The notes under the pieces: generated by a model
Told to the model about the DNA's origin: nothing
The model's database searches: none
The model's input: only the letters and a program-made list of their open reading frames with translations
Program-made: the position numbers and the translations under genes
Part shown: positions 2,411-18,582 of the stretch, one piece after another
Numbering within the stretch: position 1 is the first letter of the stretch
How the letters are laid out: every line of letters begins with the position of its first letter
Assembly (NCBI GenBank): GCA_014189685.1
Contig: DVAB01000049.1
Location: 1 to 32,440 of the forward strand
Direction: 5' to 3'
DNA length: 32,440 bases
DNA from: Candidatus Naiadarchaeum limnaeum
GTDB lineage: Archaea > Undinarchaeota > Undinarchaeia > Undinarchaeales > Naiadarchaeaceae

Positions 2411-3085
2411 ATGGCTAAAAAAGTTTGTGTTATCATAGCTAGTGAATCCGACAAAGATGTAGGGGACAAGGCAATTGAGGTTCTTGGCAAATTTAGCATT
2501 CCTTACCAATACGAGCAAGCCTCTGCGCACAGGGAGCCAAAAAGGGTTGAGCAAATTATTCTGACAACTGACGCAGAAGTTTTTATTTGCATTGCAGGAT
2601 TAGCCGGTGCTTTGCCCGGATATGTTGCAGCGCTTACAAACAAGCCAGTGATTGGAGTTCCGAAAAATGTTAAACTTATGGGACTGGATGCATTGTTCTC
2701 AATGGTGCAAATGCCGAGCGGAATTCCAGTTGCAACTGTTGGAATCGACAATGGGAAAAATGCAGCTTATCTTGCAATTAGAATTTTAGGACTAAAATAT
2801 CCAGAGGTTTTAGCAGGCGAGGCTTCTGGGAATCCAATTTCCTATCCAAGCAGCTCACCTCTTCAAACTTATAACTTTGAGCCTCCGACTTCAAGCCCTT
2901 CTCCGAGTTCATACGCAGCTTTTCCTCTTTTCTCTTCTGAGCCTTCAGCTCCAACACCAAGTTACACTCCTCCGCAAACCACTCCGCCAGCACAAAAAAT
3001 GGAGCAGCGAAATCATATTGTTGGGGATTGGGGCGTAGAAGTTAAGAAAAACGAAAGGGCTCGCGGGGATTGGTTGCAATATTAA
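2411..3085 (+). CDS. purE: PurE (AIR carboxylase / N5-CAIR mutase family) with unusual Ser/Pro-rich tail
   Basis: Purine synthesis enzyme acting on the AIR/CAIR step. The N-terminal part (residues 1-140) has the family marks: ASESDKDV (phosphate and substrate loop, residues 10-17), ASAHREPKRV with the catalytic-type histidine near residue 38, IAGLAGALPGYVAALT, and the GLDALFSMVQMPSGIPVATV segment at about 97-116. That closing segment fits the class I-like form. Normal PurE ends near residue 160. This one carries about 80 further residues that are rich in serine, proline and threonine and end in a short charged stretch (VEVKKNERARGDW). The tail looks disordered; no domain is recognised. The stop is 16 bases before purM. 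Confidence 0.9.
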   Translation: MAKKVCVIIASESDKDVGDKAIEVLGKFSIPYQYEQASAHREPKRVEQIILTTDAEVFICIAGLAGALPGYVAALTNKPVIGVPKNVKLMGLDALFSMVQMPSGIPVATVGIDNGKNAAYLAIRILGLKYPEVLAGEASGNPISYPSSSPLQTYNFEPPTSSPSPSSYAAFPLFSSEPSAPTPSYTPPQTTPPAQKMEQRNHIVGDWGVEVKKNERARGDWLQY

Positions 3086-3101
3086 TTAGTGGGAGAAAAA
3101 C

Positions 3102-4097
3102 ATGTTGGCTTGGACCTATTCAAAAGCAGGCGTAAATATCTCTAAAGCAGACCTTGCAAAAAAATCAATTGCAAAAATTCTTGGAAAAACTTATTCTAAA
3201 AAAGTTCTGCAAAAAATCGGGCATTATTGCAGCGCAGTTGATATTGGGAATGGAAAAGCAGTTGCAATTACAACTGATGGAGTTGGAACAAAAGTCTTGC
3301 TTGCGCAAAAACTGGGTAAATATGATACAGTTGGAATTGATTGCGTTGCAATGAATGTTAATGATTTGATTTGTTTAGGAGTTACTCCTATTGCAATGGT
3401 GGATTATATAGCAATTAAAAAGCCAGATGGAAAAATTATTTCTGAAATCGGCCGCGGGCTTGCAAAAGGAGCGCAGCAGGCAGGAATCTCAATTGTAGGT
3501 GGCGAAACTGCAATTCTTCCTGAAATAATCAAGGGCGCAAACGAATACGCTTTTGATTTAGCAGGCACTGCAATTGGGATTGTTGAAAAGAAAAAAATTA
3601 TTGATGGGAGCAAAATTAAGGCCGGAGATGTTTTAATTGGTTTAAGGAGTTCAGGAATACATTCAAATGGATTAACTCTTGCGCGCAAAGTTCTAAATGT
3701 AAATAATAAAAAAGTTGCGTCAGAACTTTTGAAACCTACAAAAATTTATGTAAAGCCAATTTTAAAACTAATTAATTCTGCCCAAGTTCTCGGGTTAGCT
3801 CATATGACAGGTGGCGGATTGAAAAATCTTTTGCGCCTGAACAAAAAAATCGGGTTTAAAATTGAAAACTGGCCGCGGCCACACAAAATTTTCACACAGA
3901 TTCAACGCGCAGGAAAAGTTTCTGATTTTGAAATGTTTAAAACTTTTAATATGGGAATCGGGTTTTGCGTTGTTGTTCCAAAAAATCAGGTAAAGAAAAC
4001 TTTAGCGCTCTTAAGAAAAGAAAATCCTTTTGTCGTTGGCAAGGCAATTAAGGGAAATAAAATAATTTTCCCCTCAAAAAGCATAGTTTATAAATAA
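3102..4097 (+). CDS. purM: Phosphoribosylformylglycinamidine cyclo-ligase (AIR synthetase)
   Basis: Makes AIR, the substrate of the upstream PurE, from FGAM and ATP. At 331 residues it is of normal length. Family motifs seen are YSKAGVNI at the N-terminus (residues 6-13), TTDGVGTKVLLA (58-69), GIDCVAMNVNDLICLGVTP (78-96), GGETAILPE, GLRSSGIHSNGLTLAR and AHMTGGGLKNLLRL. All belong to the PurM/SelD fold. GGGAG lies 7 bases before the ATG and is a good ribosome-binding site. The purE-purM-guaAB order is a purine gene run on the plus strand. Confidence 0.95.
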   Translation: MLAWTYSKAGVNISKADLAKKSIAKILGKTYSKKVLQKIGHYCSAVDIGNGKAVAITTDGVGTKVLLAQKLGKYDTVGIDCVAMNVNDLICLGVTPIAMVDYIAIKKPDGKIISEIGRGLAKGAQQAGISIVGGETAILPEIIKGANEYAFDLAGTAIGIVEKKKIIDGSKIKAGDVLIGLRSSGIHSNGLTLARKVLNVNNKKVASELLKPTKIYVKPILKLINSAQVLGLAHMTGGGLKNLLRLNKKIGFKIENWPRPHKIFTQIQRAGKVSDFEMFKTFNMGIGFCVVVPKNQVKKTLALLRKENPFVVGKAIKGNKIIFPSKSIVYK

Positions 4098-4115: not shown

Positions 4116-5075
4116 ATGGTAGAAGCGGAAGAATTTGTTCAAAAAGCGATTTCTGAAATAAAAAATACTATCAAGTCTGGTAAAGCTATTATTGCAGCCT
4201 CTGGAGGAGTTGATAGTACAGTTGCAGCTATTTTGTGCCACCGCGCAATTGGAAAAAATTTAACTGCAGTTCATGTTGATACTGGACTAATGCGGAAAAA
4301 TGAAAGCGCACAGGTTGTTGAAGTTTTGAAAAGTTTTGGATTAACTGTTAGATTTGTTGATGCAAAGCAAAAATTTTACACTGCTTTAAATGGAATTACT
4401 CATCCGGAGGAAAAGCGCAAGATAATTGGAGAACTTTTTATAAGAATTTTTGAGGAAGAGGCTGAAAAAGTAAAAGATGTTCAATATTTAATTCAGGGAA
4501 CAATTGCTCCTGATTGGATCGAATCAGGAGGCGGGCTCAGAGATACAATAAAAACCCACCACAATGTTGGCGGGCTTCCAAAGGAAATGCAATTAAAATT
4601 AGTTGAGCCTTTGAGGGATTTGTACAAAGATGAAGTTCGGGAAGTTGGAAAGAATTTAGAAATTCCAGATTCCATTGTAAACAAACAACCATTCCCGGGT
4701 CCAGGGCTTGCGGTTAGAATTCTGGGAGAAGTTACAGAGGAAAGAGCAAAACTTTTGCAGGAGGCTGATTTTATTTGGCGCGAAGAATTGGAAAAAGCCG
4801 CAAATGAGGAAAAAATAAATTTGCCCTGGCAATATTTTGCAGTTCTTCTCCCAATTAGAACAGTTGGAGTGCACGGGGATTTGCGCGCATATGGCTATAC
4901 AATTGGCCTGCGCGCAGTTGAAAGTTTTGATGGAATGACTGCGAATTTTTTAAAAATTCCCCCAGAACTTTTGGAAAAAATTGCAATTCGCATTCACAAT
5001 ACCTTGAAAAAAGATATTAACAGGGTGGTTTATGATATTACAAATAAGCCGCCTTCAACAATCGAGTGGGAATGA
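4116..5075 (+). CDS. guaAB: GMP synthase subunit B (ATP-pyrophosphatase)
   Basis: Converts XMP to GMP with ATP, using ammonia from the separate glutaminase subunit, which here lies at 10646-11230. The PP-loop is ASGGVDSTVA (residues 28-37). Also seen are GTIAPDWIESGGG, IKTHHNVGGLP, the dimerisation-domain signature KQPFPGPGLAVRILGEV, and the C-terminal DITNKPPSTIEWE that is nearly invariant in GMP synthases. Archaea usually make the two halves from separate genes that often lie side by side. Here about 5.5 kb separates them, and a second copy of this gene's last codons sits at 9500-9565. The start is 18 bases after purM. Confidence 0.95.
   Translation: MVEAEEFVQKAISEIKNTIKSGKAIIAASGGVDSTVAAILCHRAIGKNLTAVHVDTGLMRKNESAQVVEVLKSFGLTVRFVDAKQKFYTALNGITHPEEKRKIIGELFIRIFEEEAEKVKDVQYLIQGTIAPDWIESGGGLRDTIKTHHNVGGLPKEMQLKLVEPLRDLYKDEVREVGKNLEIPDSIVNKQPFPGPGLAVRILGEVTEERAKLLQEADFIWREELEKAANEEKINLPWQYFAVLLPIRTVGVHGDLRAYGYTIGLRAVESFDGMTANFLKIPPELLEKIAIRIHNTLKKDINRVVYDITNKPPSTIEWE
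5010..5075 (+). repeat. Left copy of the guaAB 3' end (island boundary repeat)
   Basis: The last 22 codons of guaAB. They match 9500-9565 in the same orientation: 47 of 66 bases agree, and 18 consecutive residues (INRVVYDITNKPPSTIEW) are identical. Together the two copies bracket the RiPP island, like the attL/attR remnants left by integration at the guaA 3' end. Confidence 0.75.
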
Positions 5076-5097
5076 ATTTTTAATATTTTTTAAAAGT

Positions 5098-5109
5098 AAA
5101 GTATATAAA
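5098..5109 (+). promoter_or_regulatory. TATA box of precursor gene 1
   Basis: AAAGTATATAAA is a strong archaeal TATA box with purines before it (BRE-like). It ends 30 bases before the precursor ATG at 5139, so the leader would be very short. The same element at the same spacing precedes precursor 2. Confidence 0.75.
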
Positions 5110-5138
5110 CTGTTCATACGACTCCTTCTCTGATAAAT

Positions 5139-5237
5139 ATGGAGTATGTAACACCAGAACTTCGACCACCAGTTCCAATGTGCATGGGCGACAGAGTTGG
5201 AAGGCTTTGCATGTTGGGTGGAATTTCACTCATCTAG
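5139..5237 (+). CDS. RiPP precursor peptide 1 (32 residues)
   Basis: A 32-codon gene, ATG to TAG. It encodes MEYVTPELR, then PPVPMCMGD (residues 10-18), RV, GRLCML (21-26) and the tail GGISLI. Its paralogue at 5364-5468 shares 21 of the first 26 residues, and nine of those 21 codons differ silently, which shows selection on the peptide. Each of the two cysteines (15 and 24) is followed by methionine. There is no lysine. The charged N-terminal part would serve as leader and the PMCMGD-GRLCML part as core (inference). It lies next to a radical SAM/SPASM maturase with a PqqD-like domain, a GNAT and an ABC exporter. The mature product and exact cleavage site are unknown. It does not resemble any RiPP precursor I know. 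Confidence 0.85.
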   Translation: MEYVTPELRPPVPMCMGDRVGRLCMLGGISLI

Positions 5238-5265
5238 AGAGTGGCATTAAAATTTAGTAGTTATA

Positions 5266-5310
5266 TTAAATACTTACTGTGTTCTCTCTTCTTTTGAACT
5301 CAAAGCAATG
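5266..5310 (-). pseudogene. Remnant of the 3' end of the radical SAM maturase gene
   Basis: On the minus strand this reads HCFEFKRRENTVSI plus TAA. The true maturase end is HCFEFKEIENVIAT plus TAA at 5496-5540. Length and stop position are the same, and 33 of 45 bases agree. No more of the gene follows: at 5311-5314 the sequence passes into the promoter of precursor 2. It is the right-hand end of the first tandem-duplication unit, not a working gene. Confidence 0.8.
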
Positions 5311-5322
5311 CAATTTAAGAGT

Positions 5323-5334
5323 AAAGTATATAAA
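5323..5334 (+). promoter_or_regulatory. TATA box of precursor gene 2
   Basis: AAAGTATATAAA again ends 30 bases before the ATG at 5364. After it, TTCATAC-A/G-ACTCC is also kept between the two copies (5113-5125 and 5338-5350) although nearby leader bases have drifted. That could mark an initiator or leader element. Confidence 0.75.
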
Positions 5335-5363
5335 TTATTCATACAACTCCCTATGTGGTAACT

Positions 5364-5468
5364 ATGGAATATGTAGCACCAGAAGTTCAGCCGCCAGTCC
5401 CCATGTGTATGGGCGATACCACTGGAAGACTCTGCATGCTAAGCACGCTAAGCATAGAGCTTTACTAA
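5364..5468 (+). CDS. RiPP precursor peptide 2 (34 residues)
   Basis: A paralogue of the gene at 5139. It encodes MEYVAPEVQ, then PPVPMCMGD (10-18), TT, GRLCML (21-26) and a different, longer tail, STLSIELY. Both cysteines and all four methionines are kept. Conserved codons carry silent changes relative to copy 1 (GAA/GAG, CCG/CCA, GTC/GTT, CCC/CCA, TGT/TGC, GAT/GAC, AGA/AGG, CTC/CTT, CTA/TTG). Replacements fall at residues 5, 8, 9, 19 and 20 and in the C-terminal tail. The cell may therefore make two related products with the same modification. It converges on the maturase gene, with 27 bases between the stops. The function of the product is unknown. Confidence 0.85.
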   Translation: MEYVAPEVQPPVPMCMGDTTGRLCMLSTLSIELY

Positions 5469-5495
5469 GAATAGTATTAATTTTTAGTACGTGGA

Positions 5496-6917
5496 TTAAG
5501 TAGCTATAACATTCTCTATTTCTTTGAATTCAAAGCAATGCGGTGGTGTTGCATATAGTGCTTTAAAGCGATCTTTTTCAGGATAGCGATCTTTGTTATA
5601 CAGATATACTATTGCTCTGCACGATCCTCCACAGGCATACTTGAAAGTGCAGATACCACAGCGCTCAAATTGGTCAACGCTCATAGAGCGGAAGAGTTTG
5701 AAAATTTCAGAATTTTCTATAATATCCCAGACTGTTCGCTCTCTTACATTTCCGCCTGTGAATTCGGGCCACCCTCCTAAAAGAATACATGGTTTTACAT
5801 TACCTTCTGGGTCAATTGCAATTCTATGTATTGCAGCACCGCACATTTTGCGAGGCGCAACTTTTTTGTCCCATCTCTCTAAATTAAACAAATCTTCAAG
5901 CGGCTCATCTATATCAACAGCTATCTTCTGTTGATATTCCTTTGAAAGTTCAAGAACTGCTGCTACAAAGCTGCGCGTTTGGTCAGGCGTGAGTTCGGAT
6001 ACTATTCCTGCGCCACGTCCCATAGGCTGAGCAAAGCCAAGTCTGATTATAGGCGCGCCTAAACTTATTGCTAACTCCACCCTCTTTCTCATCTCAGGCA
6101 TATCTGCTGAGGTCATAACAGATGACACCATGACTATATGGCCAAGCTCAGCAAGCATTCTAACTGCGTTAGTTGCTCTTTTCCAAGATGTTGGCACTCC
6201 CCTAAATTTATCATGCATTTCAGGTGTTGAGCCATCTATGGATATTTGAACTATGCTAAAGAGCTCCTTGATTTTCTTTGCATTGCTATTATCAATAAAG
6301 AAGCCATTTGAAAAAAGAACAGGTGCGAGCCCAATTTTTTTGGCATATTCTGCTAGCTCAAAAACATCGTCCCTCATTAATGCTTCGCCGCCTGTAAAAG
6401 TTACACCTATTATACCCGCCTCCTGTATATCATCCAGCATCTTCTTGCACTCTGCTGTTGTCAATTCCTTTTCTTTTGCAAAGCCCGCATTTGCAGAGCA
6501 GTGAACGCATTTTAAATTGCATTTTAGTGTAAATTCAATATCCGCCCACAGCGGTCGCCTTATGCCACTGACTTGAACTCCTTTGTACTTTTCGTAATAT
6601 GAAATCTCAGGCTCAACTTTGTCTTCACTTTTAACAATAAGTTTGTGCTCAAACATCTTTTCTAAAACATTCTTTGTATCGCGAAGGGCAATTGGGAAAT
6701 CAACATTTTCAAATTCCTCGCAGATAACCTTTGCAATATCATTCACAGTCTTATCGCCATCACAACACTCAAAAATTCGAGCAGCAGTTAGATTTATCTC
6801 TCTTGCTATTGTTGTTCTTCTGTTAAAAACAGTGCCGCCATTTGGCTCTTTTCTATAAATTATTTCAGGACTTCTTATGTAGTACATCTTAGCACCATTT
6901 GTTTCGTGAAGTTGCAC
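5496..6917 (-). CDS. Radical SAM/SPASM peptide maturase with N-terminal PqqD-like RRE domain
   Basis: 473 residues from a GTG at 6917; an ATG at 6887 (residue 11, MYYIRSPE) is an equally plausible start. Domains: a PqqD-like winged-helix RiPP recognition element (about 11-98: FNRRTTIAREINLTAARIFE, then DGDKTVNDIAKVICEEF); a radical SAM core with C133-x3-C137-x2-C140 (CNLKCVHC) and the GGE-type motif TFTGGEALMR; and a C-terminal SPASM domain with all seven cysteines (359, 377, 420, 423, 429, 433, 461, including CGICTFKYACGGSC). This predicts three iron-sulfur clusters. Such enzymes make thioether, C-C or related links in peptides such as sactipeptides, ranthipeptides and PQQ precursors. The likely substrates are the two peptides beside it. 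The chemistry cannot be told from sequence. It follows the GNAT gene by 4 bases. Confidence 0.9.
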   Translation of the reverse strand: MQLHETNGAKMYYIRSPEIIYRKEPNGGTVFNRRTTIAREINLTAARIFECCDGDKTVNDIAKVICEEFENVDFPIALRDTKNVLEKMFEHKLIVKSEDKVEPEISYYEKYKGVQVSGIRRPLWADIEFTLKCNLKCVHCSANAGFAKEKELTTAECKKMLDDIQEAGIIGVTFTGGEALMRDDVFELAEYAKKIGLAPVLFSNGFFIDNSNAKKIKELFSIVQISIDGSTPEMHDKFRGVPTSWKRATNAVRMLAELGHIVMVSSVMTSADMPEMRKRVELAISLGAPIIRLGFAQPMGRGAGIVSELTPDQTRSFVAAVLELSKEYQQKIAVDIDEPLEDLFNLERWDKKVAPRKMCGAAIHRIAIDPEGNVKPCILLGGWPEFTGGNVRERTVWDIIENSEIFKLFRSMSVDQFERCGICTFKYACGGSCRAIVYLYNKDRYPEKDRFKALYATPPHCFEFKEIENVIAT

Positions 6918-6921
6918 TTAT

Positions 6922-7830
6922 TTAAAGATTTCTTTCGTAAAGTCTTATATTGGGGTTTCTTGTCTCTTTTTTAAACCCAATATTTAGATACATCCCTAGG
7001 GAAGGGGATGCTGTGCCAGCACTTGCAAGCACAGATCTTGTTCGCCTAGATCTTGCCCATTCAATGCTTCTCTTAATTAAGTAGGGCGAAACTCCGCTTT
7101 TAGCCTCATAAACAATTGATGTTCCACTTATCAGAGCACTAAATGGAAAACCGCTTGAGCAAATTACATTCTTTACAAAAGCCACAATTTCTCTCTTGTC
7201 ATTTTCTAATAGGAAAAAGCCATTTTGCTCTGCCCCCCATACTAATTCTTTGTAGAGGTACTCCTGAATCTTCTTTTCAATATTTTCAAACATTAAAGAG
7301 ATAAGCCTTGGCTTATCACTACTTTCAAAGACTTTTTCTCGTAGCCCTGCTGGCGGTTGCAAACTGAGCGGGTGTGGAGGAATTCTATATCTGAGCGTAT
7401 GTCCTTCGTATATTGGCTTAAATCCATAACCATCTAAAAACCCCCAAATATCATCATTTCTCACGATCGGCGAGGTATGCACTTTTTGAATTCCTGCACT
7501 CTTCATTTTGTCGCAAACAAGATCAAATAATTGCACTCCTGCAGTCTCCAAGTAACCTGGATGAATGGCAAAGAAAATTTGTCCAGTGGGTGGGCTCATT
7601 CCCTTATACTCTCGGCTTTGATGTCCTCTGACCGCTCCAACAAATCTTCGCTTATCGTAAGCCACAAAGTGCCAGTCATTATTGTACAATGGGTCGTTTA
7701 AAATAAGCTCTTTGACTGATTTTGGTGTAGTTTCTTGAAAAAATCGGTGGTAGTTATTTGCACTATTATATAAATCAACATAACTTTGCAAATCTTTTTT
7801 TGCATTGAAATTTCTAATTATAACAACCAT
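6922..7830 (-). CDS. GNAT-superfamily protein, probable double-domain acyltransferase
   Basis: 302 residues. The N-terminal half (about 3-150) has GNAT features: the strand VIIRNFNAKKDLQSYVDLYN, then VAYDKRRFVGAVRGHQSR and the IHPGYLETAGVQLFDLVCDKMKSAGIQKVHTSPI segment resembling the acetyl-CoA region, then FLDGYGFKPIYEG. The C-terminal half (about 165-302) repeats the pattern: FLLENDKREIVAFVKNV, then SPYLIKRSIEWARSRRTRS and MYLNIGFKKETRNP. It is the first gene of the maturase operon, with the stop 4 bases before the maturase start. It could acylate the peptide N-terminus or protect the host by modifying the product. Since neither precursor has a lysine, the alpha-amine would be the only obvious amine. 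Substrate unknown. Confidence 0.7.
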   Translation of the reverse strand: MVVIIRNFNAKKDLQSYVDLYNSANNYHRFFQETTPKSVKELILNDPLYNNDWHFVAYDKRRFVGAVRGHQSREYKGMSPPTGQIFFAIHPGYLETAGVQLFDLVCDKMKSAGIQKVHTSPIVRNDDIWGFLDGYGFKPIYEGHTLRYRIPPHPLSLQPPAGLREKVFESSDKPRLISLMFENIEKKIQEYLYKELVWGAEQNGFFLLENDKREIVAFVKNVICSSGFPFSALISGTSIVYEAKSGVSPYLIKRSIEWARSRRTRSVLASAGTASPSLGMYLNIGFKKETRNPNIRLYERNL

Positions 7831-7915
7831 GTGTATAAAATTAAAGTCTACTTCATAATATTTATAGTTTCTATAACAACTTTAATTAATACCATTTTTC
7901 ATTAGGTGTAGTAAT
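7831..7915. promoter_or_regulatory. Divergent promoter region between GNAT-maturase and exporter operons
   Basis: 85 bases separate the two opposed start codons. On the minus strand ATAAATATT (about 7857-7866) lies about 30 bases before the GNAT ATG. On the plus strand TTAATTAATA (about 7882-7891) lies about 25-34 bases before the exporter ATG. The two TATA-like elements lie back to back, so one regulator could control modification and export together. I see no clear palindromic operator. Confidence 0.5.
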
Positions 7916-8668
7916 ATGATAAAAACAACAAACTTAACAAAGAGATACCCTCTGCCTGGAAAAATGGGCTTTGTAACAGCTCTAAACAGAGTGAGCTTAG
8001 AAATTAAAGAAGGAGAAATCTATGGATTAGTTGGCCCAAATGGAGCTGGGAAAACGACCCTTCTAAAAACTATTGCCGGCTTGCTGATCCCGGAGAAAGG
8101 AACAGTTTCTGTTAATGGAAAAGATATTATTGAAGACCGCGAACAAGTGCGTGGCTCAATTGAATTTTTGATGAGTTCTGGTTGGATAATATTTGATTAT
8201 AAACTACCTTTGAATTTCAACCTAAAATATTGGGGAGTGATGCAAGGACTGGGGTTGAATGAAGCTGAGAAAAAGGCAGAGGAAGTGCTTAAACTAATTG
8301 GCCTTGGTGAATATGCAGATGCCTCACCTGAAAACTTATCCGCAGGAATGCGGCAAAAACTAAACATTGCCCGTATTTTACTCACTGAAAAACCAATTTA
8401 CCTTTTGGATGAGCCAACAACTGGTCTTGATGCGGTATCAGCAAATTTTACAAGGAATTTCATTAAGAAGAATTTAAAAAAGCACGACAGAACTATTATC
8501 ATGGCCACGCATAATCTCTGGGAGGCTGAGGAGCTCTGTGACCGGATTGGAATTCTGAATAAAGGAAAGCTGCTCTTCAGTGGCACAATTGCTGAGTTGA
8601 AGAAAAAGCACGGCAAAAAATCGCTGGAGCAGATATTTATGAAACTCGTTGGAGGCACAGAGATATGA
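7916..8668 (+). CDS. ABC transporter ATP-binding protein (exporter type)
   Basis: 250 residues, a complete ABC ATPase. Walker A is GPNGAGKTT (40-48), the signature is LSAGMRQKL (141-149, where LSGGQ is usual), Walker B is IYLLDEPTTGLD (161-172), and the H-loop is in MATHNLWEAEELCDRIG. The order and the C-terminal GTIAELKKKHGKKSLEQIF match the DrrA/CcmA-like ATPases that pair with ABC-2 permeases. It overlaps the permease gene by four bases (ATGA), so the two are translationally coupled. Its place beside the precursor and maturase genes suggests export of, or immunity to, the modified peptide. This is inferred from position only. Confidence 0.93.
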   Translation: MIKTTNLTKRYPLPGKMGFVTALNRVSLEIKEGEIYGLVGPNGAGKTTLLKTIAGLLIPEKGTVSVNGKDIIEDREQVRGSIEFLMSSGWIIFDYKLPLNFNLKYWGVMQGLGLNEAEKKAEEVLKLIGLGEYADASPENLSAGMRQKLNIARILLTEKPIYLLDEPTTGLDAVSANFTRNFIKKNLKKHDRTIIMATHNLWEAEELCDRIGILNKGKLLFSGTIAELKKKHGKKSLEQIFMKLVGGTEI

Positions 8669-9486
8669 GATTGCTTGATATCCTTTACATAAACACTTTA
8701 AGGTCTCTTAAGCTGTGGCTCAGGTTTAGAGTTAGCTTTGCCACATCCATTGTTGCAATGATCGCAAACATAGCAATCTTTTTCTTTTTGGGAATGGCTT
8801 TTGGGAATGCCGCAAATTCTGCAGTTGCTATTTATGGAACAACATTCTTCTCATTTGTACTTGTTGGAATTGCTTTTAATCAATATGCGCTTATGGCAGT
8901 AAATGACTACTTAAGGATTATACGAACCGCTTATTTCTCAAACTGGATGGAAATACTTCTTTCTTCAAGAACAATGGGATATTACTTGCTTTCAACCATT
9001 GTATGGAGCTTTATTTTGACAACTTTTAATCTCATACTCTATCTTGTTTTTGGGGTTTTTTTGTTTGGCGCAAACTTAATTTTCCCACCAAATTGGTGGA
9101 TGATTTTTGTTATACTCTTTCTTACAATTATTAGCTTATCTGGGATTGGGCTTCTTGGAGCTGCTGTTTTTTTAAGAGGAGCCAAAGGAGATCTTGAGCC
9201 AATAACATGGCTTACCGGAATATTTGCCGCTCTTGTTGCAGGTGTTTACTATCCAATTGAAAAACTGCCCGCGATTGTACAAACAATTTCAAAATTTTTG
9301 CCACACACTTACGCTCTCAGGGGGGTAAGATTGATTTTGCTGCAAGGCGCAGGGGGCGGGGAGATTTTTTCTATAATAGTTTATTTAGCACTTTTCTCAA
9401 TTGTTTTGTTTCCACTTGGTTACTTTCTTTTCATAAAAAGCTTAAAAAAAGCTGAGCGTGAAGGTACGCTAGTCCGCTGGGCTTAG
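8665..9486 (+). CDS. ABC-2 type transporter permease
   Basis: 273 residues with about six hydrophobic segments (near 22-47, 55-75, 108-132, 146-172, 184-200 and 238-262), the layout of ABC-2 permeases. The stretch LTGIFAALVAGVYYPIEKLPAIVQTISKFLPHTYALRGVR, split here by description only, is typical of the family (the YYPIEKLP and LPHTYALRGVR parts). It is coupled to the ATPase gene by a four-base overlap. Its stop lies only 13 bases before the guaAB remnant, so it is the last gene of the island. Confidence 0.9.
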   Translation: MRLLDILYINTLRSLKLWLRFRVSFATSIVAMIANIAIFFFLGMAFGNAANSAVAIYGTTFFSFVLVGIAFNQYALMAVNDYLRIIRTAYFSNWMEILLSSRTMGYYLLSTIVWSFILTTFNLILYLVFGVFLFGANLIFPPNWWMIFVILFLTIISLSGIGLLGAAVFLRGAKGDLEPITWLTGIFAALVAGVYYPIEKLPAIVQTISKFLPHTYALRGVRLILLQGAGGGEIFSIIVYLALFSIVLFPLGYFLFIKSLKKAEREGTLVRWA

Positions 9487-9499
9487 TATTCTGTGGGAA

Positions 9500-9565
9500 A
9501 GGAATATTAACCGCGTTGTATACGATATCACTAACAAACCGCCAAGCACAATTGAGTGGGGATAA
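9500..9565 (+). pseudogene. Displaced 3' end of a guaAB gene (right island boundary)
   Basis: Reads RNINRVVYDITNKPPSTIEWG plus TAA in frame, split here as RNINRVVY then DITNKPPSTIEWG. It matches the end of guaAB at 5010-5075: 18 consecutive residues are identical but many codons differ silently (47 of 66 bases the same). Similarity fades upstream of 9500, and no GMP synthase catalytic part remains. The TAA is one base before the next gene's ATG, as in an operon, so this looks like the original guaAB end, cut off by an insertion. Confidence 0.8.
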
Positions 9566-9566
9566 A

Positions 9567-10649
9567 ATGCCAGACGATTTCAGAGCAACTACTTTGGGAG
9601 GACTTTTTGTCCCAATTACAATGCTATATTCTAATTTAATAGCCGTGCTCATGGCACGATTTTTGAGTCTGAGAAGAAAAAAAGCTCATGCATATTTGGG
9701 AAGAAAGGAAATTTTCGATGCACTTGATAGACTTAAAACTGAGAGAGAATATATTGGATTTATAAGAAACTTTAGAAAAGATGTTTTCGATCCGTTTAAA
9801 GAATTATTATTTACAGCGCGCGAAGGCGTTTATACACAGATTCCGCGCAAACAATTGGCAACATTTTATCAGGAGTTCAATCTTGGCGGTCTTTACTATC
9901 CACGCTTTCAATTCGTATCTGGACGAGAGGAGGTTATTGGAAGCGAAGAGTACAAACCAGAAGCACTTGTAGAAGTAGAAAGAATAAAGGATGTTGAACT
10001 GGGCAAAATAATTAAAGAGCACAGTGTCCTTATTGACAAAATATTACGGCGTGCGCTATTTTCAAAAGAAAGAGACCTCATTGTTGCAGATCTTGTTTTT
10101 GCGTCAGGCACATATATTGTTGCGCGCATGTCAACTGAAGACATATATTTTACCATGAACAGGCTTCTTGGCGCTTATAGAACAAAGCCTTGGGCATCGC
10201 AATTTGCTCCATTTACTTATGCACTTACTATCAAACCAAATGATGTTGAAGTCGATATTGACACTTCAACAACAAAAATCTTTAAAGCTAAATATCGGTC
10301 AATAAGAAAGGAAGTAAAACGATACTTTAGGGTGAAAGGAGCAATAAAAAAAGTGCAAAGGATTTTGAGCAGCCGCGAATTAGGGAAAAAATTCTATCTC
10401 CAGCTTTCATATGCCCCCTCAAAAGAAAGAAATAAGAAAGGGGAAATGATAGTTCTAATAGCTTTTACTCCTCCAATTTCCAGGTTTGCGCGCGGAAATG
10501 ATTGGGATATCTTAAGGAATTTAAGCTTATCAGAACTTATGGGAACTTTTGATGGGATAGCTGATGTAATTTTTGAGCTGAAGGAAGAAATCCTCGGTGC
10601 ATTCGACCCAATTGATTTGAGCCGGCACTTGGAGGAATATTTTAAATGA
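9567..10649 (+). CDS. Conserved-looking protein of unknown function in the GMP synthase operon
   Basis: 360 residues from an ATG one base after the guaAB remnant's stop. A TTG start at 9516 would lie inside that remnant in another frame and is unlikely. One hydrophobic stretch, GGLFVPITMLYSNLIAVLMA, near residues 11-30 may anchor it; the rest is charged and mixed alpha/beta, with basic stretches such as KAKYRSIRKEVKRYFRVKGA. It ends SRHLEEYFK and overlaps guaAA by four bases, so it is translationally coupled to it. The original order guaAB - this gene - guaAA suggests a link to GMP synthesis or simple co-transcription. I recognise no domain. Confidence 0.8.
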   Translation: MPDDFRATTLGGLFVPITMLYSNLIAVLMARFLSLRRKKAHAYLGRKEIFDALDRLKTEREYIGFIRNFRKDVFDPFKELLFTAREGVYTQIPRKQLATFYQEFNLGGLYYPRFQFVSGREEVIGSEEYKPEALVEVERIKDVELGKIIKEHSVLIDKILRRALFSKERDLIVADLVFASGTYIVARMSTEDIYFTMNRLLGAYRTKPWASQFAPFTYALTIKPNDVEVDIDTSTTKIFKAKYRSIRKEVKRYFRVKGAIKKVQRILSSRELGKKFYLQLSYAPSKERNKKGEMIVLIAFTPPISRFARGNDWDILRNLSLSELMGTFDGIADVIFELKEEILGAFDPIDLSRHLEEYFK

Positions 10650-14124: not shown

Positions 14125-17100
14125 CTATTTTTCTTTTCTTAAAAAGGAGTATGAAATCAAAATTAACGCTGCAACAACTAAAACAATAATTCCATAAATT
14201 AGGATCGGGGTTTCTTTTTTAACTTCCTCCTTTTTTTCAATTTCCTGAATTATTTCAGGTGCTTTCTTCTCCCCAGTTTCCGCAGGAATTATTGCCTGCT
14301 CTGGTGTTTTATTTTTCTCAGTGGCTTGACTCTTATTTAGCAACTGAGCACCACCCCCTCCCCCTCCTCCTCCTGTACCACTAGTTCCTGTACTTGGAGC
14401 AGGTATTGATGGAGGAACATACTCAGCAGCTGCAGAATAGTGCAATCCTGTAATCAGATAGCGATTTCCATTTACCAATGTGCACCTATGCTCATTTTGC
14501 AAAGTTCCATCGCATGTGAGCAACTTTTCGTTTGTGCCAGTGCATGTGCTTGTAATGTCTATTAGATTTTCCACTTCAGCATCTTTTATGCAAACTTTGT
14601 TGTCCGCAGTTGTCTTGTCAAGATACATCGACTTTGTCCTTCCTTCAGGAGTTAGATTAACGCCCCTTATTAAAATTCCTTTAGCCCCTCTTATCTGCTC
14701 CTCTTTAATTGTTATGTTGCTGAAATCCAAAATCTTTGAGCTATTAAATGTGAAATTAAATTGTATTAGCACTCTATTGTCTCCGGTAGAAATAAAATCA
14801 ACTGGCAATGTTCCATTTATTATTTTAAAAATATCGCCCGAGTTGTTTATTTTTATTGTAATGTTTATGTTTGAAATAATATTGCTGGCATTTCCCTGAA
14901 TGTAATCAAATATGTCTGGAATTCCATCGTTGTCATCATCCAAATCGCAGGCATCTCCTTGGCTGTCTTTGTCAAAGTTTTCTTGTTTAGGATTGTAGAT
15001 TAGCGGGCAGTTGTCCTGCGAGTCTGGAATTCCGTCATTATCAGAATCTTTAATAATTGGTTTGCCGCCGGAGAAAATTATATATCTTATTATATTCTTG
15101 AAATAACTCGCCACACCATCGCCATCTAAATCTTCACTTATAATAATTCCTGCATTACGGTCATAGTATATTTCCCCTGTGGTAAAAACTAGCGTATTGT
15201 TGTAGAAAGTTAGGCCGCTTCCAACAACATTTGTGTTAATCAACTTTTTGGTTAGGATATCGTAATATCTTATTATAGGATTGATACCATCAACTATAGC
15301 GATTGCTTTATTAGAAACTGCCGTAGCAAAATATCCTGCGAGACCGCCTATATCTGCAACTTCTCCTGTTGCGATATTATAATATTTTAATTTATTCTCA
15401 GGATAAGGCGTTGTAAAAACAACAATATTATTATAAAAAGCAAAGCCGGATGCACCAATGGAAATATTTGTATCAACTAATGCATTTCTATCTATGTAGT
15501 ATAATTTCAATTTATTTTCTGGAGCCGAACGGAATGCAATTATCCCATCTGCTATGTCAACCGACTCATATGCTGTAGCATAACTCGTATTCACAAACTG
15601 CTTATTGCCAGTATTGTAATAGGCAAGATAATAGTTCGGGTAACTCCCCATAATAAGGGCAATAATTCCGCTTGAAACACTTACCTCGCGGATACCATCT
15701 CTGACTGACAAAACACTTCTTGTTAATTCTTTTGTAAGAATATCATAGTAATTCAAATAAAATATGCCCTCTGTGTAGTTCCAAACTGAAAAAGCAATAA
15801 TATTGCCATCTCCAGAAGCAGTGTATGTAGAAATGTTAGTATTTTCAATGATTCCTGTATTTTTATTGTATAATCGCAAAATGTAATCATAAATGTCGCC
15901 ATCCCCATTTAGGTCTTTTCCTGCCTCATATGTTATAACTGGAATTATTGTTGCTTCAGGCTCTGCATTGCTATTGTTAATAGCTTGCCCAACCACTCCT
16001 GTATTAACTAAAGTTTCCTCAATACCATCCCCATCTATATCTGGGATTTTTGAGAATTGTGGGAAAGTAATGTTACTTTTTACAGTTATTGTTGTGTTTT
16101 GTCCATATCCTGTGTTTGCGCCATCGCTGCAGACAGCCTGTGCTGTGTATGTTCCAGTTTTATTTGGGGTAAATAAAGTCCACCATGTTTGGGCGCCGGA
16201 TTTAATCATTAACTTTTGAGTTGAGCCATCCCAGCGGAAGTTGCAATAACTTACATTTACATTATCAGTTGCAGTTATTGTAAAATTAGTTGCGTTATTT
16301 AGAATTGCAGTTGTTGGGGATATACTGCTTACGATTGGGGGAGTTGTGTCTTCGAGAGTGAGATAAACATATTCTATGAAAATATTTGAAATCTTTAAAA
16401 TACCAGCAGAATCTGAGTGAAAAATCAATGGAACTAAACAGTTACCACTTGAATCAGAACTACAGGTTCTTAGGAAATCATTGATTTCTGCTGAAAAATT
16501 AGAGGTGCTTTCTGTGATTTTAAACTCTCCTAGATAAGACCATTGTACATCTCCATCATTGGCAACATCAAGAGAGGGCTTGTTTGTGAAAGAAGGAACT
16601 GTAGCAGCATAACTTATAAACCGATAACCATAAACTGTTGTGGGATTACCAAATTCATCTATATAATGATAGGCATAGTTATCATCAGAGACAAGAGAAC
16701 CATTTTCTGCGCATCTAAAAGTAACAGTTTGTCCTTCGGCTATACCAGAAGTATAACGCAAAACCATCTTCCATATGAACTTACTTTGGTTTTGAACATA
16801 AAAAGCCCACATATCATATTGCCCATATTTTTGTTCTATTAACCGTGGATCTTTATATTCAGCTTCGCTTATTGCACCTACAAAAGAAACAGGGGCACCA
16901 ACTGGAGTATATTTCCAACCTCCGCAATCCCAGTTAATAGAAGATGCTGTATATATGGGATATTTCGTTGTAAATCTATAGATGTCTTTTAATGGGCTAT
17001 CCACATAGCCTGGATACTCGTATAGTTCTTGTGTAGCTAATCCTTTTATTGAAAGGGTGGCATTTGTGACGGAAGTATTTTTCAGCATCTTTAAGAAAAC

Positions 17101-18582
17101 AACTTGATTTTCTGCTCTTGTAAATGTTAAATTCTTCTCGGTAGAACCATCCGAAAGTGTATTGATGTAGTAGGTAAATGTTTTGGGAGCACTGCTAACC
17201 GTAAAACTCTTTATCCCACTATTTGCAGTATTTCCAGCAGCATCAGAAGCATTTGCCCAATAAGTGTGGTTTCCTGTAGAGTAAGTTTGTGCTGTTGTTG
17301 TGCAAGGAGAACTCGTGCAAGTATTTTTTAATACAGCGTCAACGTATATTCTGATACTACTTATGCCGACATTGTCAGAAGCTGTTGCTGTAATTATTAC
17401 TGAATCAGATGTTGTTGGGCTTGAAGGAGAATGAGAAATTGAAACATTTGGAGGAATCGTGTCTGCTGGTTGTGAGACTATAAAACTCTTTGTCCCAGTT
17501 GCCGGATCTCTTCCATAATTCAATGAAGTGTCATTTGCTACAGCATAGTAAGTATATGTTCCTGCGAGTGAGGCGACAATTGAGTATGTACATGGAGAGG
17601 TTGTGCAGGAATAAGCCCATCCGCCCCCACTTGGGTTAACAATCCACATTGAAATCATTTGTATGCCAACATTATCTGTTGCTATTGCAGTAAAGGTAAC
17701 AGTTTGTCCTGTTGTTAGATTTTGTGGACTATGAGTTATTGAAACATTTGGCGGAGTTGTATCTTTAGGAATTGGAATCTCATAAGTAACCTTTATATCT
17801 GAAACTTCCAAAATTCCGCCTGCAGAACTTGAATGAAAAAGCAGTGGAATTGTGCAATTGCCATTTGAATCTGGGGTGCATGTTGATAAATATTCATTCA
17901 GTTCTGCTGTAAACTCAGGAGTGGTTTCTGTAGTTTTAAACTCTCCAGAATAATACCACTGTAAATCAGCATCATTTCCAACATCTAAATTTGGGTCAGT
18001 TGGGGCAAAAGGCAAATAATATTCGTAATATATTTCATGCGGCTTGTTTTTATTAGGAGGCTCGCCGCAAACAACATTTTGTGCAAACTTACTTGTATTT
18101 AAAACATAAAATGTACCGCTGGCATTTATATTAGAAGGATCATTATATTGCTGCTCAGTTATTTGTGTGAAAGTTGTAAAGTTTGTAGGAACATTACCGC
18201 CCGGGCCGCAGTGAGTGACCGCATAGGAAATTGCGTATATATTGTTATATGAATTATATCTGCTAAAATTGCCTATGCTGTCTATGTAAGTAAGATTTTC
18301 AGCATGCACAATTCCATCACCTCTATATATTGAAAAACCGCTCAAAGTAAGAGAAGCATTTGTAACAGTGGCATTTTTTGCTATTTTTAAAAATTCTGTT
18401 TTTTCACCGGCATTTTCAAATATTAAATTTTTTTGAGTTGAGCCATCTGAAAGTGTATTTAGAGTATAGGTTTGAAGGCCAGTGGGAAAATTATTCCGCG
18501 TGGACAAAAGAAGAATGGCAATAATAACTATGAATAAAAAAGGTAGGTATTTTCTGAATTTATCAAAGCCTGTTTTCTTCAT
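14125..18582 (-). CDS. Large anchored surface protein (Ig-like, propeller-like and TSP3 calcium repeats)
   Basis: 1485 residues, exported and anchored at both ends: TM at 10-28, and a C-terminal TM near 1461-1481 followed by RKEK. In order: a paired module (about 38-270) containing [12 protein letters not shown], a D-x-G-N-D-A-D segment and [13 protein letters not shown]; two Ig-like repeats (about 280-465, [11 protein letters not shown] and [11 protein letters not shown]); a second copy of the module (about 469-745, [25 protein letters not shown]); an Ig-like domain (746-834); a propeller-like region (about 846-1167); thrombospondin type 3 calcium repeats (about 1174-1224, [15 protein letters not shown]); a C-terminal cysteine-containing domain; a run of eight glycines (about 1400); and a charged Glu/Lys stalk. 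Many N-x-S/T sites. Role: cell envelope or adhesion, inferred. Confidence 0.85.

Follow-up and report, generated by a model that had tools for sequence, protein, structure and literature searches.

We conclude, with a probability of roughly 0.8, that two short ORFs of an archaeal contig, designated here A and B, are RiPP precursor genes for the RRE-radical SAM-SPASM maturase encoded beside them, that they derive from one tandem duplication and are both under purifying selection, and that they sit on a cassette at the end of guaAB. The window, meaning the whole stretch of DNA analysed, covers positions 1-32,440 of the forward strand of contig DVAB01000049.1 (assembly GCA_014189685.1) from Candidatus Naiadarchaeum limnaeum. 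Gene A (5139-5237, plus strand) encodes the 32-residue peptide MEYVTPELRPPVPMCMGDRVGRLCMLGGISLI, and gene B (5364-5468, plus strand) the 34-residue peptide MEYVAPEVQPPVPMCMGDTTGRLCMLSTLSIELY. The ATG at 5364 is the likely start of B, which the ORF list begins at an upstream GTG, position 5355. Gene callers easily overlook precursor genes of only some 30 codons, and little is known of modified-peptide pathways in archaea with small genomes.

Over codons 1-26, the two copies agree in 21 of 26 residues. Nine codons differ only silently (E2, P10, V12, P13, C15, D18, R22, L23, and L26), while five, at positions 5, 8, 9, 19, and 20, carry replacements; recomparison found these counts, and every position named for them in the initial annotation, to be correct. 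The 18 nucleotide differences in this stretch are distributed 4/3/11 over codon positions 1/2/3 (Fisher P = 0.009), and the difference in tail length, a net 6 nt, keeps the frame. A dN/dS calculation over the two copies, suggested earlier as a check, gave an NG86 omega of 0.07 in the ATG frame (pS 0.66, pN 0.11), a rough value because dS is near saturation. Omega in the other five frames ranged from 0.26 to 1.5.

Simulations were run with the ATG frame fixed and the number of differences kept close to that observed. Across the 26 codons, so few replacements arose at P <= 0.0005 with two neutral copies, and at P = 0.002-0.004 with one neutral and one conserved copy. With the tail included, for 31 codons in an alignment made by eye, the corresponding results were 0 of 3000 runs for two neutral copies and P = 0.0003-0.002 for one. 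A simulated omega of about 0.1 acting on both copies gave a good fit, and values of 0.3 or more a poor one. The statistical base is small, with only the 18 differences to draw on, and in a scan that assumed no frame the best third-position signal reached P = 0.075. Divergence is 42% at silent sites vs 24% in the flanks, a faster rate that is not significant (P = 0.09). Because the differences in DNA are mostly silent, both ORFs very probably make a short peptide, and that both are translated and under selection is, as far as sequence can speak to it, well supported.

The duplication itself offers a control. Its unit, about 228 nt long, comprises a TATA box, the ORF, and the final 15-16 codons of the radical SAM gene, which is convergent to the ORF, and it is visible as two self-matches, 5089-5213 with 5314-5438 (80%) and 5238-5311 with 5468-5541 (72%). 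Since the second block of copy B enters the 3' end of the radical SAM gene, the segment at 5266-5313 (minus strand) is recognized as a copy of that gene's last codons; it reads HCFEFKRRENTVSI and a stop, vs HCFEFKEIENVIAT and a stop in the living gene. This fossil differs from the living gene by two silent and seven replaced codons, and, being a product of the same duplication, has therefore drifted while the ORFs have not. A direct contrast between the precursor pair and the fossil yields P = 0.09, which we regard as support for selection on the ORFs, not as proof. Taken together, the silent-codon test and a neutral control in place make a good case for two real genes.

A counterexample, however, lies 4 kb away in a duplicated end of guaAB. 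Although separate from every guaAB gene, the fragment at 9503-9565 shows 11 silent codons and a changed stop against two replacements. It keeps this bias because its divergence happened while it was coding, in another gene copy, and it follows that a silent pattern alone is no proof of present function. The initial annotation had stated that a pattern of this kind would not survive in non-coding duplicates, and the fragment contradicts this. It had further stated that the pattern proves both genes to be translated and selected. The direction of that claim stands, given simulations at P <= 0.004 and a radical SAM fossil with no silent bias, but the word "proves" is too strong in light of the frame-free result, homologue searches that found nothing, and the guaAB tail, whose pattern is even more silent.

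Three other explanations of the pattern were weighed. A pairwise comparison with no outgroup cannot be polarised, and so the silent differences might reflect constraint on one lineage, with a single working precursor gene and a decaying duplicate. The longer tail of copy B, which by inspection contains a near-repeat (CTAAGCACG CTAAGCATA), would suit such decay. This explanation is nevertheless improbable: when one copy is neutral, so few replacements are seen in 0.03-0.4% of simulations, and start, stop, frame, and TATA element are intact in both copies. It is quite improbable, too, that the divergence took place between coding genes of separate genomes, which recombination later joined, in which case the pattern would be inherited and one or both genes might now be idle. 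The guaAB tail is a case of exactly such inheritance, in a region that looks like a mobile cassette; yet the fossil lying between the two copies drifted without silent bias, as expected after a local duplication, and both ORFs remain intact.

That the repeats are non-coding, whether as conserved regulatory DNA or as structured RNA, we consider very improbable. Conservation does extend to the 50 nt upstream of the ORFs, where the copies have nine differences, but the differences within the ORFs spare the first and second codon positions in the ATG frame. A structured RNA was rejected, as the repeats have no Rfam match and fold no better than shuffled sequences (z -0.98 and -0.59).

In the preferred reading, a single duplication would have produced two RiPP precursor genes, each with its own archaeal TATA promoter. 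A TATA-type element, AGTAAAGTATATAAA, is found at 5095-5109 (plus strand), about 34 nt 5' of the ATG of A, and an identical one at 5320-5334 (plus strand) precedes B. Matches to it with up to two mismatches number four across the window, vs 0.22 expected. By the usual spacing of archaeal promoters, the distance from TATA element to ATG implies nearly leaderless messages.

The precursor genes converge on the maturase gene (5496-6917, minus strand) and lie outside its operon. The maturase has 473 residues if translated from the GTG at 6917, or 463 from the ATG at 6887, and matches the Pfam models PqqD, Radical_SAM, and SPASM, all above cut-off. Its cluster ligands, Cys 133/137/140 of a CxxxCxxC motif and seven SPASM cysteines (359/377/420/423/429/433/461), are invariant in nine aligned sequences. 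An AlphaFold model has a mean pLDDT of 70, with the N-terminal domain (residues 12-97) mostly at 65-88 and the SPASM end poor; its best structural matches are SuiB, SkfB, CteB, TigE, and PqqE. Directly upstream on the same strand is a GNAT acetyltransferase gene (6922-7830; PF00583, E 2e-5, above cut-off), ending 4 nt before the maturase GTG. Diverging from this pair, on the plus strand, are genes for a DrrA-like ABC transporter ATPase (7916-8668) and the ABC-2 type permease paired with it (8665-9486). Neither a leader protease nor a lasso cyclase was found among the eight neighbouring proteins scanned. For the preferred reading, the convergent placement of the precursors and the missing leader protease are both points against.

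In its architecture the cluster belongs with known RRE-radical SAM RiPP clusters, and its precursor family is an orphan. An N-terminal RRE followed by radical SAM and SPASM domains, with a short precursor ORF adjacent, is the arrangement of SuiB/streptide, SkfB, CteB, and AlbA, which include the nearest solved folds, although the maturase is only 15-20% identical to solved enzymes of the SuiB/SkfB/CteB type. With this enzyme, every NCBIfam maturase model stays below its cut-off. Scores against cut-offs, in bits, are 146/625 for StsB, 116/850 for AlbA, and 83/300 for SkfB among sactipeptide equivalogs, and 157/265 for mycofactocin, 125/381 for PQQ, and 187/500 for heme d1 (NirJ2). The enzyme is related to StsB and PqqE, at scores far below both curated cut-offs. 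Precursors A and B match no family.

The peptides share the motif Y3xxP6. YxxP and W/Y/LxxP/L/I are recognition motifs mapped for the RREs of lasso, PqqD, and StsC systems (PMC12710340). In StsA/StsB/StsC and PqqA/PqqD/PqqE, a W/YxxP leader motif is read by a PqqD-like RRE (PMC12710340), but the RRE there is a separate protein whereas here it is fused to the maturase, and no other gene of either pathway is present. Lasso peptide leaders likewise carry a YxxP, read by the B1 RRE, and here as there a hydrophobic residue stands two places on; unlike in lasso systems, the genes scanned here include neither a lasso cyclase nor a leader protease. Among all the residues that the initial annotation proposed to meet the enzyme, only Y3xxP6 has outside support (PMC12710340), and a motif as short as YxxP could occur by chance.

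A plausible pathway can be put together from these parts. The PqqD-like RRE of the maturase would grip the N-terminal Y3xxP6 strand of the precursor, and the radical SAM centre and SPASM clusters would then modify the conserved part, P10-D18 or G21-L26. Both precursors have two conserved cysteines, C15 and C24, compatible with the thioether links of sactipeptides or ranthipeptides; the modified site would most likely be at or near them, and the bond could be a thioether or a carbon-carbon cross-link. The GNAT protein might either acetylate the peptide or serve to protect the host, the ABC transporter would export the product, and a leader protease would be supplied from elsewhere. Both genes are tied to one enzyme open to testing in vitro. 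A more ambitious proposal sees here a new RiPP class from an archaeon with a small genome, in which orphan two-Cys YxxP precursors receive a new radical SAM cross-link together with acetylation, an integrase-free guaA-end cassette has spread through archaea, and the duplication lets positions 19-20 and the tail diversify; this we consider doubtful.

Searches for relatives of the precursors were negative. A precursor profile found no homologue in 297 genomes, where non-self matches were weak (the best having E 0.009 over 19 positions), and none in viral_contigs. A relaxed pattern, MCMGxxxGxxCM, had one viral and six genome matches, all of which we read as chance frames with no leader. No close relative of the maturase was found in genome_contigs or viral_contigs, and no relative of the GNAT protein at E <= 1e-8 in the 297 genomes.

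The same enzyme architecture, PqqD-radical SAM-SPASM, does occur at 29-30% identity in three genomes (loci L051, L052, and L053). When the precursors were aligned locally with ORFs near distant radical SAM matches, nothing rose above background. At these three loci, a conserved ORF of 32-39 residues lies 19-28 nt upstream of the PqqD-radical SAM-SPASM gene (L051:7123-7242, L052:3886-4005, L053:948-1046). Two of the three ORFs have 0 amino acid differences and eight nucleotide differences, at third positions only. Identity in protein with differences that are purely silent is an independent sign that short selected ORFs accompany this type of enzyme. The peptide (WKLxIEDFEKAACYRDHGDYRP) has no Pfam or NCBIfam match, and the ORFs probably represent an undescribed precursor family. 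These loci differ from the cluster described here in that their precursor is unrelated and its gene, on the same strand as the enzyme gene, directly precedes it, with a second radical SAM gene next; following the PqqD-radical SAM-SPASM gene are a second SPASM gene and an MSMEG_0568-like radical SAM gene.

The guaAB gene occupies 4116-5075, and a cluster of about 4.5 kb separates its end from the second guaAB 3' end. The left boundary of this putative cassette is the guaAB 3' end at 5013-5075 (plus strand), with a GAGTGGG core at 5064-5070. The right boundary is the second 3' end at 9503-9565 (plus strand), which reads NINRVVYDITNKPPSTIEWG and a stop, has 73% DNA identity to the first over 63 nt, and carries GAGTGGG at 9554-9560. 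This right copy adjoins the next gene, with ATG at 9567, after which comes guaAA. As it differs from the left copy mostly at silent sites, it probably comes from the guaA of another lineage. The GMP synthase is split, and subunit A (guaAA) scores above the cut-off of NF001975; this split and the TATA-type promoters are the grounds for taking the DNA as archaeal. Bracketed by guaAB ends (5064-9565), the cluster interrupts the order guaAB-ORF377-guaAA. The gene at 9567-10649, between the guaA subunits, encodes a protein of 360-377 residues that neither Pfam nor NCBIfam models match, and a search of 20 genomes found no relative.

The 3' end of guaA is a known target of elements with tyrosine recombinases (PMC5704250). 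The published guaA att core is GAGTGGGA (PMC9376610), and GAGTGGG stands at both ends here as in that core. GIsul2 and other guaA-end islands similarly combine a duplicated guaA 3' end with the GAGTGGG core (PMC9376610, PMC5704250). In contrast to those islands, the element here is only about 4.5 kb long, its end copies differ by 27%, and no integrase was detected among the genes between the repeats or in the genome, where neither PF00589 nor PF00239 has a match to indicate a tyrosine or serine recombinase. PF00589 has no match in this 98% complete genome vs a match in 14 of 14 control genomes, and thus no XerA-like enzyme was detected. The simplest reading is that the cluster is an integrated cassette whose integrase apparently acts in trans or has been lost. 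It would then represent an insertion at the guaA end in an archaeon with a biosynthetic pathway as cargo; a literature search of partial coverage gave no direct report of guaA-end elements in archaea.

Another genome of the same domain (locus L048, G244:C134) has, at 2506-3783, three guaA 3' ends in tandem, in an array free of integrase. A small GNAT gene and an ORF of 79 residues lie between the first two ends, and about 190 bp separate the last two. Elsewhere in the window, positions 14125-18582 encode a repetitive protein of 1485 residues, apparently a surface protein, with internal repeats at 16382-16569 and 17795-17985 that are 72% identical.
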